This document shows positions 10,600 through 50,885 of a stretch of DNA of 64,000 nt, piece after piece. The position numbers were made by a program, and so were the translations under genes. How positions within the stretch are numbered: the stretch's first letter is position 1; the number at the start of each line of letters is the position of its first letter. The stretch is from Enterococcus innesii (GTDB lineage: Bacteria > Bacillota > Bacilli > Lactobacillales > Enterococcaceae). The notes below the pieces were generated by a model. The model saw nothing but the letters and a program-made list of their open reading frames with translations, searched no databases and was not told the DNA's origin. The stretch covers positions 5,001 to 69,000 of the forward strand of contig JAHHEN010000002.1 of NCBI GenBank assembly GCA_018982785.1, given 5' to 3'.

Positions 10600-10855
10600 A
10601 AGAAACTTTCACGTTTGAGAAGAAATAGTAGAAGTACGGTGGGACTTTTAGAGAGTGCATGGTTGGTGGAAATGCACAGCACACCTTTCGAACTCGTCTT
10701 CGAGTGATATCTGACTGAACCTGAATTGGCTAGGCAGATACGGCGATGGCCGTTAAAACATCGAGGTCTGCTTTTTTGAGGAGCAGATAAACTTAGGTGG
10801 TACCACGTTGATAACGTCCTATAAAAATCATAGCGATTTTTATAGGACTTTTTTT
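10600..10855 (+). promoter_or_regulatory. T-box leader of leuS
   Basis: The 349-bp gap before leuS holds a T-box riboswitch. Stem I has the AGAGAG and GGTTGGTG elements near 10632-10655 and an arm with leucine codons (CTC and CTT within GAACTCGTCTTCG). The T-box proper AGGTGGTACCACG is at 10795-10807. The terminator GTCCTATAAAAATC/GATTTTTATAGGAC plus T run is at 10816-10855. Uncharged tRNA-Leu, whose 3' end ACCA matches the TGGT bulge, should stabilise the antiterminator and allow leuS transcription. Confidence 0.93.
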
Positions 10856-44796: not shown

Positions 44797-46797
44797 TTAG
44801 CGTTCCTCGATGCGTAATTCTGTCAGAGAGCTTTCTTTCATCTGACCGATGACCAATGGGACGGTCTCATGAACCACATCGCTATATTCTAAGCCGAACC
44901 AGCGTTCAGGTGAAATGGTATGGCGTTTGATAAAAAGCTTCGTCTGCATGACTTGCTTCTGCCATTTGCTTAATGCCGTTGCATTCGACAGCTCTTCTTC
45001 GATCATCACGAATTGGAAATCACCCACATTGCGTCCAGGCGTTAAGGAGTAGCGTTGCGGCTGCAGCGGCAAGCGACCATCTTTCATTAATTCTTGAATG
45101 ATTTGGCGAATGTAGAGATTGACTTCTTGCGGCACCCGAAAGCCGAGATAAAGCTTTAGTTTAACGATAAAATCGGTATCTGCCATCGAAACTTCATACT
45201 TTTTCGTATAGGGTTCATCGGTGACTTCCACATTGACGAACCAATACACTTTGGCACGCTTCGGCCGTTTGTCTAAAATGGAATAGATGAACTGCTGACC
45301 GATCTGATCGTCTTGCAGTTTAGGAACCATGAAGACGACATTCGTCTGAGATAATGGCAAAGAATCATCTTCCCGCAACTGTTTCAATTGAGGGATGTAG
45401 GTAGAAAGTGCAACTTCTTCGGCAGCATTTTCTTGAATACGATTGCCCCATTCCCAAATCAGCATCACGCCGATGATTAGGCAGGCTAGTAAGATGGCAA
45501 CGTAACCGCCGTGGAAAAATTTGGTCGCACTGGAGATAAAGAAAATGCCCTCGATCACTGCAAAAAAGAGCGTGATGAACGGTGCCAAGAAACGGGTCTT
45601 CTTGTTTTGGTGCAAGTAGAAATAGAGCAAAACAGTGGTCATCAACATCGTTACCGTAATGGCCAATCCATAAGCGGCTTCCATATGCGTAGAAGTCCTG
45701 AAGAATAAGACCACACCGGAGCAGGCGATCCACAACAAGGTGTTCAAGGCAGGAATATACATTTGCCCGATAGACGCCCCCGGATAGATGATTTGCATCC
45801 GTGGCAATAGTTTCAACTTGATGGCTTCAGAAACCAAGGTAAAGGAGCCAGACAGCAGGGCTTGCGAAGCAATGATGGCAGCGAGGGTGGCAAAGCTGAC
45901 ACCAAAGACTGTCCACCCTTGCGGCAACGCTTGGAAGAATGGATTCAAGTTTTCGATTTCTTGATAAGTCGGATTTTGATAGACTTGCAGCAACCACGCC
46001 GCTTGACCAAAGTAATTCAGCATCAAGCAGATTTTGATATAGGGCCAGCTGGCATAAATGTTTTTCTTACCCACGTGACCTAAGTCTGAGTAGAGGGCTT
46101 CTGCACCAGTCGTTGCCAAAAAGATATTGCCGAGAATAAAGAGCCCGGAACTGTTATCGGGACTAAAGAGCAGATTGATTGCATACCGGGGATCAAGGGC
46201 GCGAATCACCGAAAGGTCACCGGCAAAGTTCATCACCCCGACGATGCCTAAGAAGGTAAACCAGCCTAGCATGATCGGTCCGAAGGCTTTGCCGACAAAT
46301 TCAGTCCCAAAACGCTGCAGGGCAAAGAGGACCAATAAGATCGCTAAGGTGATGCCGACGATGATCGATTGGTCATTGCCGAAGCGATCAAAAAAGACTG
46401 GAATCCCTCGTAATCCTTCGATGGCAGTGGTCACCGTCACGGCCGGCGTCAACACGCCATCTGCTAGCAGGGCTGCGCCCCCGATGATTGCTGGAATAAT
46501 CAAATAGCGGCTATTTTTACGAACTAGGGTATAAAGGGAGAAAATCCCGCCTTCTCCATGGTTATCCGCATTTAATGCGATCAAGACGTACTTGATCGTC
46601 GTTAACAAGGTCAGCGTCCAAAAGACGAGTGAGACGCTGCCTAAGATAAAATCAGGTGTTAAGGTGCGTAGTCCGCCATTGTCCTCCACCAAGGCTTTCA
46701 TTACGTAAAGTGGGCTCGTACCAATATCACCGTAGACCACCCCCATGGCGACTAAAAGTCCGCCGGCGGTCACTTTTTTCATTTTGCTTGAACTCAT
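44797..46797 (-). CDS. kup: KUP-family potassium uptake protein
   Basis: 666 residues: 12 predicted TM segments to about residue 440, then a cytoplasmic C-terminal domain. The family signature GVVYGDIGTSPLYVMKAL is near the N-terminus. K+:H+ symport. ATG 46797 is preferred because GGAGGG lies 10 nt upstream; ATG 46815 overlaps that site. Transcription must pass the attenuator at 46826-46861. Confidence 0.94.
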   Translation of the reverse strand: MSSSKMKKVTAGGLLVAMGVVYGDIGTSPLYVMKALVEDNGGLRTLTPDFILGSVSLVFWTLTLLTTIKYVLIALNADNHGEGGIFSLYTLVRKNSRYLIIPAIIGGAALLADGVLTPAVTVTTAIEGLRGIPVFFDRFGNDQSIIVGITLAILLVLFALQRFGTEFVGKAFGPIMLGWFTFLGIVGVMNFAGDLSVIRALDPRYAINLLFSPDNSSGLFILGNIFLATTGAEALYSDLGHVGKKNIYASWPYIKICLMLNYFGQAAWLLQVYQNPTYQEIENLNPFFQALPQGWTVFGVSFATLAAIIASQALLSGSFTLVSEAIKLKLLPRMQIIYPGASIGQMYIPALNTLLWIACSGVVLFFRTSTHMEAAYGLAITVTMLMTTVLLYFYLHQNKKTRFLAPFITLFFAVIEGIFFISSATKFFHGGYVAILLACLIIGVMLIWEWGNRIQENAAEEVALSTYIPQLKQLREDDSLPLSQTNVVFMVPKLQDDQIGQQFIYSILDKRPKRAKVYWFVNVEVTDEPYTKKYEVSMADTDFIVKLKLYLGFRVPQEVNLYIRQIIQELMKDGRLPLQPQRYSLTPGRNVGDFQFVMIEEELSNATALSKWQKQVMQTKLFIKRHTISPERWFGLEYSDVVHETVPLVIGQMKESSLTELRIEER

Positions 46798-46825
46798 TGA
46801 CTGTTTTCCCTCCATTTTAAACTGC

Positions 46826-46861
46826 AAAAAGACCTAAGCGGCCCCTTGCCACTTAGGTCTT
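46826..46861 (-). terminator. Attenuator-type terminator in the kup leader
   Basis: AAGACCTAAG/CTTAGGTCTT stem then T5 on the minus strand, 29 nt before the kup start. The stem lies within the 3' part of the leader ORF. Confidence 0.8.
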
Positions 46862-46926
46862 GCAAGAAACATCTTAAACCAGCGGATTCCCGCTTGCTGT
46901 TGATCTAAGATCATGGAACGATCCAT
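46834..46926 (-). CDS. Leader peptide ORF upstream of kup
   Basis: 30 codons, MDRSMILDQQQAGIRWFKMF followed by LARPKWQGAA, with a strong AGGGGAG 6 nt before ATG. Its last ten codons are the terminator stem, and the TAG stop lies in the right arm. Ribosomes reading to the end would block hairpin formation, so translation and kup transcription appear coupled. Confidence 0.65.
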   Translation of the reverse strand: MDRSMILDQQQAGIRWFKMFLARPKWQGAA

Positions 46927-46950
46927 GTGCTACTCCCCTAAAGTGCTCTT

Positions 46951-46979
46951 ATTATCTTTGTTTTTGCAGCTCCTGTCAA
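46951..46979 (-). promoter_or_regulatory. Promoter of the kup leader
   Basis: Near-consensus on the minus strand: TTGACA, 17-nt spacer, GATAAT. Confidence 0.88.
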
Positions 46980-50639: not shown

Positions 50640-50885
50640 CGCAAAAAAGCCATCTGTTAAAAACAGATGGCACATTCTAAAAAGAATGGGTAATATCCGT
50701 TGATGCCGTTCTTTTTCCCATAGTATTGATCCCGCAAATTCTAGCAGGTGGGTTCCACGGTCTAAGCTTCGAACTACCAAAGGAAAAGGCATGTTACCAG
50801 CATTGACACAAGACGGATCCCAAGATATCAATAAAAATGTTCGGTCAACACACAAAAGGGACAACTCGTACATCACAGAATTCCC
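50640..50885 (-). ncRNA. ssrS: 6S RNA (lacto-usp RNA)
   Basis: An ORF-free minus-strand unit between rarA and the small-membrane-protein/usp pair. This is the position described for the lacto-usp motif, thought to be 6S RNA, and rarA is a frequent 6S neighbour. It has its own promoter and ends at a hairpin GCCATCTGTT/AACAGATGGC plus T6. GGGTGGG near the 5' end can pair with CCCACCT about 125 nt later. 6S RNA binds sigma-70 RNA polymerase in stationary phase. I did not fold the whole molecule; the exact ends are estimates. Confidence 0.75.

Follow-up and report, generated by a model that had tools for sequence, protein, structure and literature searches.

A putative yybP-ykoY-type ON riboswitch in the leader of the potassium transporter gene kup of enterococci

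The leader of kup in Enterococcus innesii (46946-46826, minus strand, of the window, as we call the whole 64,000-nucleotide stretch analyzed) is probably a yybP-ykoY (Mn2+) family riboswitch acting as an ON switch at the level of transcription, with ligand and direction predicted; we put the probability of this reading at roughly 0.8. The leader has a conserved fold with an L1/L3 core, is homologous to leaders of P-type cation ATPase genes, and the 3' strand of its switch helix P1.1 is common to the terminator before kup. We rate the aptamer class as known, and the subtype and its target as new. What exceeds chance at this locus is the RNA, and not the 30-codon open reading frame (ORF) that overlaps it.

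Architecture and conservation of the kup leader

The kup gene (44797-46797, minus strand) encodes a K+ transporter matching the Pfam family K_trans (PF02705, E 4e-145), and the ATG at 46797 is its preferred start in view of the Shine-Dalgarno sequence GGAGGG (46808-46813). Upstream on the same strand, a promoter scan places a -35 hexamer TTGACA (46974-46979) and a -10 hexamer GATAAT (46951-46956) at a 17-nt spacing, from which transcription would start near 46944. With 11 of 12 consensus bases over 46979-46951, the near-consensus promoter of the earlier note is indeed present, though the scan expects 1.7 sites as good per 1200 bases by chance against the one found, so that the promoter is plausible and alone not significant. 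Folding identifies an intrinsic terminator (46826-46860) with a 13-bp stem, in which 46860-46848 pairs with 46842-46830, a 5-nt loop and five T residues, the last of which (46826) lies 29 nt before the kup ATG. A simple terminator scan did not list a hairpin before kup. The leader as a whole folds with a z-score of -3.3, and one of 200 shuffled sequences was equally low.

Overlapping the terminator stem, Rfam model RF00080 and our model R2 (see below) place a yybP-ykoY-type aptamer (46851-46946), a three-way junction of P1, P2 and P3 that lacks P4. The switch helix P1.1 is formed by UUUAGG (46937-46942) and CCUAAG (46852-46857), the latter being common to the 5' arm of the terminator. L1 consists of GGGGAGUAGC (46929-46938) on the 5' side and GCAAGACC (46856-46863) on the 3' side. 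The P2 hairpin occupies 46912-46927, and P3 (46871-46911) carries the internal loop L3, AACAGCAA (46894-46901), closed by UC/GG. The fourth base of L3 (46898), when placed by eye against the published numbering, is the equivalent of the invariant Mn2+ discriminator, which is A48 in X. oryzae and A41 in L. lactis (PMC6754395, PMC9190785).

The structure was evaluated on an alignment (A1) of 33 of the 55 distinct kup leaders, chosen by hand, the remainder being mostly near-identical. Under the hand-drawn helices P1.1, P1, P2, P3a and P3b, 96.7% of cells are paired, and 13 of 27 pairs have changed on both sides, compared to 4.2 in shuffled alignments (0 of 500 as high). This covariation signal vanishes when the pairing partners are slid, and unguided RNAalifold returned nearly the same fold. 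A P4 helix or four-way junction is absent in A1; we do not treat P4 as defining, since a three-way-junction member of the family has been described for mgtA (PMC9495176).

The core positions are similarly conserved. The equivalents of G9-A10-G11 read GAG in all 33 rows of A1, and the L1 feature GGGGAGUA with an extruded A, together with AGACC on the 3' side, occurs in the kup leaders. Among the 55 distinct Enterococcaceae leaders, GGGGAGTAGC is present in 52 and TCAACA, which includes the discriminator A, in every one; the A itself is found in 33/33 rows of A1. Outside the Enterococcaceae, L3 reads AACUA in 7 of 12 kup leaders, which leaves the register of the discriminator A unsure in those seven.

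Family assignment and distribution

Scored alone against RF00080 (Mn2+ riboswitch), the window leader reaches 20 of the 45 bits required (cmscan, E 0.00066), and Rfam gives no match for it at the gathering score. At that score no element passes in any of 105 Enterococcaceae genomes, ATPase-linked leaders included, and we therefore read the missed threshold as a limit of the model. Relaxing the search to E 5 yields a match at 2 of 20 Enterococcaceae kup loci and none at the other 18; up to E 1, 9 of 12 kup leaders from two other families match (E 0.007-0.54, below the gathering score), as do just 3 of 20 ATPase-linked loci. As these Rfam scores are weak, it is the common motif, together with examples from the literature, that supports membership of the ATPase-linked leaders. 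Several other RNAs of the window pass their Rfam cut-offs, namely a SAM-III riboswitch (2765-2846), a T-box leader (10605-10824) and 6S RNA (50690-50884); a 5S rRNA gene and a dense tRNA cluster lie at 171-2673.

Two models were built, R1 from the 33 kup leaders of A1, and R2 from an alignment (A2) holding no kup leader. For A2, 22 ATPase-linked leaders were used from a set of 33 non-kup sequences; four ATPase-linked sequences (L129, L229, L246, L256) and seven family f7 sequences proved difficult to align and were omitted, and L235, L257, L133 and L134 were not among the sequences extracted. The two models are not independent, as the members of R2 were gathered with R1. In the 64-kb window the kup leader is the single match to R2 (42.6 bits, E 2.6e-7), and all 69 kup leaders tested match at E 0.002 or better. 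Among 35 kup upstream regions missed by our first sequence pattern, R2 matches one, a truncated true leader (L085). It also recovers, weakly, 6/6 family f7 leaders that pass RF00080 (E 0.005-0.37), one of which, in L144, is followed by a TerC gene according to Pfam.

Across the whole source genome R2 detects three elements, the kup leader and two before P-type ATPase genes. The latter are at G000:C7:169840-169933 (L306) and G000:C10:162752-162852 (L305, L247), and the ATPase ORF behind the second is split over two frames in this assembly. R1 likewise detected, in addition to the kup leader, an element before a P-type cation ATPase gene in the source genome. We examined 40 matches to R1, namely all 29 listed outside the Enterococcaceae plus 11 taken from 40 weaker matches within the family. 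Judged by sequence motif, 12 of those examined are followed by kup and 28 by a P-type ATPase gene. Separately, Rfam model RF02617 (SSRC10, "Streptococcus sRNA 10") matches ATPase-linked leaders at 16 of 20 loci, L247, L248, L240 and L233 among them, with 26-40 bits against a cut-off of 56. SSRC10 itself may be a terminated yybP-ykoY-type leader and not a separate sRNA.

The likeness to the leaders of P-type cation ATPases (such as L. lactis yoaB and S. pneumoniae mgtA) extends to GGGAGUA and AGACC in L1, the UC-AACA core of L3, a P1.1 strand common to the terminator, and the predicted ON logic; it was assessed on the 22 ATPase-linked leaders (two such leaders lie in the source genome), with yoaB and mgtA compared by description only. 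In contrast to these leaders, the target here is a K+ importer, and L1 ends in GUAGC where 19 of 22 ATPase-linked leaders have GUAAC. TCAACA is followed in the ATPase-linked set by GT, AT, AC and GC in 12, 5, 3 and 2 of the 22 leaders, respectively.

The leader is present in 6/6 genomes of the window's genus, and in one of these (G001) it is identical to that of the window over 194 nt. More widely, 58 of 92 kup genes from Enterococcaceae have the element upstream (57 loci with the full motif within 700 nt, and G091 with the element approximately 725 nt upstream), and none was seen at the remaining 34; the motifs that recur upstream of these 92 genes are GGGGAGTAGC, TCAACA, CTGGT and AGACCTAA, in shifting frames. 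Twelve genomes from two families other than the Enterococcaceae also carry it before kup, and in genus g4 it is found in 1 of 15 genomes. In genus g13 the distance between aptamer and kup ranges from 94 to 507 nt. In one g13 locus (L077:399-722), a 122-nt repeat occurs twice after the riboswitch terminator and before kup, the two copies being 89% alike. Repeat-like stretches were seen by eye in other g13 loci (L081, L082, L068), and a repeat search in L082 found no family.

A pattern scan of one genome per species (84,980 species) gave 47 matches. Of these, 42 lie before kup, all in records titled Enterococcus, including E. casseliflavus, E. gallinarum, E. avium, E. raffinosus and E. malodoratus. 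The others precede genes for a P-type ATPase (three), OAD_beta (one) and Na_Ca_ex (one). The OAD_beta case, from an uncultured Neglecta (L277:7008-7075), concerns the beta subunit of a Na+-transporting decarboxylase, and the Na_Ca_ex case, from Glaciimonas soli (L298:5735-5830), a Na+/Ca2+ exchanger. A record titled E. faecalis 13-SD-W-01 (L286) carries the element and is possibly misnamed; no other record so titled is among the 47 matches.

Predicted switching and its input

The arrangement of P1.1 and the terminator is shared by most of the 57 Enterococcaceae kup leaders that were classified by expression platform. In 52 of them the 3' strand of P1.1 forms the 5' arm of a hairpin of 10-19 pairs, and 4-8 of the 9 nt that follow are T. 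The other five, all from genus g5, carry at the ribosome site of kup the sequence AACUUAGGAGG, which is complementary to CCUAAGUU in P1.1. Judging from this complementarity, P1.1 can mask or pair the kup ribosome site in g5, as a candidate translational version of the same ON logic. As the platform changes from terminator to ribosome site while kup stays, kup appears to be the real target of the element.

Since the 5' arm of the terminator is the 3' strand of P1.1, the kup leader should be an ON switch. Stepwise folding, which models secondary structure only and includes no metal, gives P1.1 a probability of 0.67-0.84 for transcripts ending between 46853 and 46838, up to the point where the 3' arm begins to appear, and the terminator a probability of 1.00 from 46830 on, once this arm is complete. 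A metal bound between L1 and L3 would keep P1.1 closed, which would block the terminator and let RNA polymerase reach kup; with no metal, the terminator would form. The same layout of P1.1 and terminator is found in the L. lactis riboswitch, where Mn2+ stabilizes P1.1, the 3' strand of which otherwise joins the terminator (PMC11087558).

Kup is not a manganese exporter, and Mn2+ is the ligand of the yybP-ykoY family. A downstream gene of Mn2+ homeostasis, which is a usual and not a defining feature of the family, is thus lacking here, kup encoding a K+ transporter. By analogy, the ligand of the kup leader is likely Mn2+, with alkaline pH tightening its binding. Two E. coli riboswitches compared here by description, alx and mntP, belong to the same family and are reported to respond to Mn2+ and to alkaline pH alike. 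Binding of Mn2+ by the mntP element is 17- to 22-fold tighter at alkaline pH, and reporters for alx and mntP are most active with Mn2+ plus alkaline pH (PMC9603457). They differ from the kup leader in their targets, and mntP also in acting on translation initiation (PMC9603457). In S. agalactiae, expression of the gene behind an ATPase-linked leader drops more than threefold at pH 5.2 and that of the leader does not, with more termination in acid (PMC4448216). At alkaline pH, growth of an E. faecalis kup ktrA double mutant is poor, the more so when K+ is scarce, and import of H+ by Kup was proposed in that study (PMC9945522). In the light of these findings on mntP and alx, S. agalactiae and E. 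faecalis, it makes sense for a K+/H+ symporter to be governed by a Mn2+/pH switch: rising Mn2+, rising cytosolic pH, or both, would lead to synthesis of Kup.

An input other than Mn2+ excess on the same scaffold, either a low-K+ state or Ca2+/Mg2+, is unlikely in our judgement. Here, diminished competition by K+ at the phosphate-rich L1-L3 site would allow divalent cations to bind and kup to be turned on. The identity of the target, a K+ importer and unlike the usual Mn2+ exporters, favors such an input, as do the response of the relative before mgtA to both Ca2+ and Mn2+ (PMC9495176) and the divergent L3 in 7 of 12 non-enterococcal kup leaders. Moreover, lactic acid bacteria apparently lack the c-di-AMP riboswitch (PMC10243994), so that K+ uptake could be controlled by some other RNA. 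Against it, L1 and the L3 core of the kup leaders (A1) are close to those of the ATPase-linked leaders (A2), and a K+ dependence of any family member was not found in the passages of the literature that were covered. The c-di-AMP (ydaO) riboswitch is likewise an RNA switch before K+ importers (PMC6108528). As the identity of the kup leader it was rejected, Rfam showing no ydaO match there, either at the gathering score or with E up to 10.

It is possible, if doubtful, that the Mn2+-family reading and K+ itself meet in one device, a subtype recruited to K+ homeostasis. Either alkaline pH or low K+ would then strengthen divalent binding and turn kup on, and the leader would integrate Mn2+, pH and the monovalent ion background to direct K+/H+ import.

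The overlapping ORF and unregulated termination

The earlier note took the ORF (ATG start, 46926 to 46834, minus strand) for a leader peptide gene whose translation opens the hairpin. The ORF exists as described, and its stop codon TAG (46836-46834) lies within the 3' arm of the terminator, followed by the T run; start codon and spacing recur in the six genomes of the window's genus, one of which lacks the stop. We nevertheless judge the ORF incidental and regard control by ribosomes on it as very improbable. Its supposedly strong ribosome site, GGGGAG, which ends 6 nt before the ATG, is the conserved L1 loop of the aptamer. A start codon at this position occurs in just 6 of 57 kup leaders, every one in the window's genus. 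Counting any ATG 4-14 nt past GGGGAG raises this to 11 of 57, and the resulting ORFs span 1 to 100 codons. The conserved leader letters sit in different frames in other genera, with indels and stops, an outcome that the earlier note itself had named as speaking against its reading. Within the six genomes, variable sites fall on codon positions 1, 2 and 3 in 5, 6 and 2 cases, so that third-position changes are not in excess, and 10 of 11 variable codons show an amino-acid or stop change; L041 has no stop codon there, and its frame continues into kup. A search with the peptide in 105 Enterococcaceae genomes returned weak matches, many directly before kup in other genera, which we attribute to the conserved RNA being read in shifted frames. 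In short, a conserved start codon, a conserved frame and coding-type substitutions were all tested for and are absent.

The ATG itself is located in the 5' strand of P2. CAUGG occurs in this strand only in the window's genus, where the partner strand is altered to match, and the pair at the start codon is A-U in 30 and G-C in 3 of the 33 rows of A1. A constitutive terminator that merely limits readthrough is, if anything, still more improbable. The strong hairpin with its T run would suit this role; a promoter-like site directly upstream, the conserved covarying aptamer that overlaps the stem, and the five of 57 leaders that use ribosome-site pairing instead all argue against it. From the earlier proposal, a conditional terminator before kup and a part for ion conditions are retained, and the translation state of a leader ORF is not.

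Within the titles, abstracts and passages covered, we found no paper linking the yybP-ykoY class to kup; where "yybP-ykoY" and "kup" were mentioned together, "kup" was part of authors' names. The case shows that conservation of an RNA fold can produce a leader ORF as a side effect. Our analysis suggests that many enterococci couple potassium uptake to manganese, and possibly to pH as well. If this is true, many enterococci and some of their relatives would have a K+ importer controlled by a riboswitch of the Mn2+ family, and three published facts previously unconnected would be joined: the response of E. coli members of the family to alkaline pH, termination in acid in S. agalactiae, and the role of Kup at alkaline pH in E. 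faecalis.
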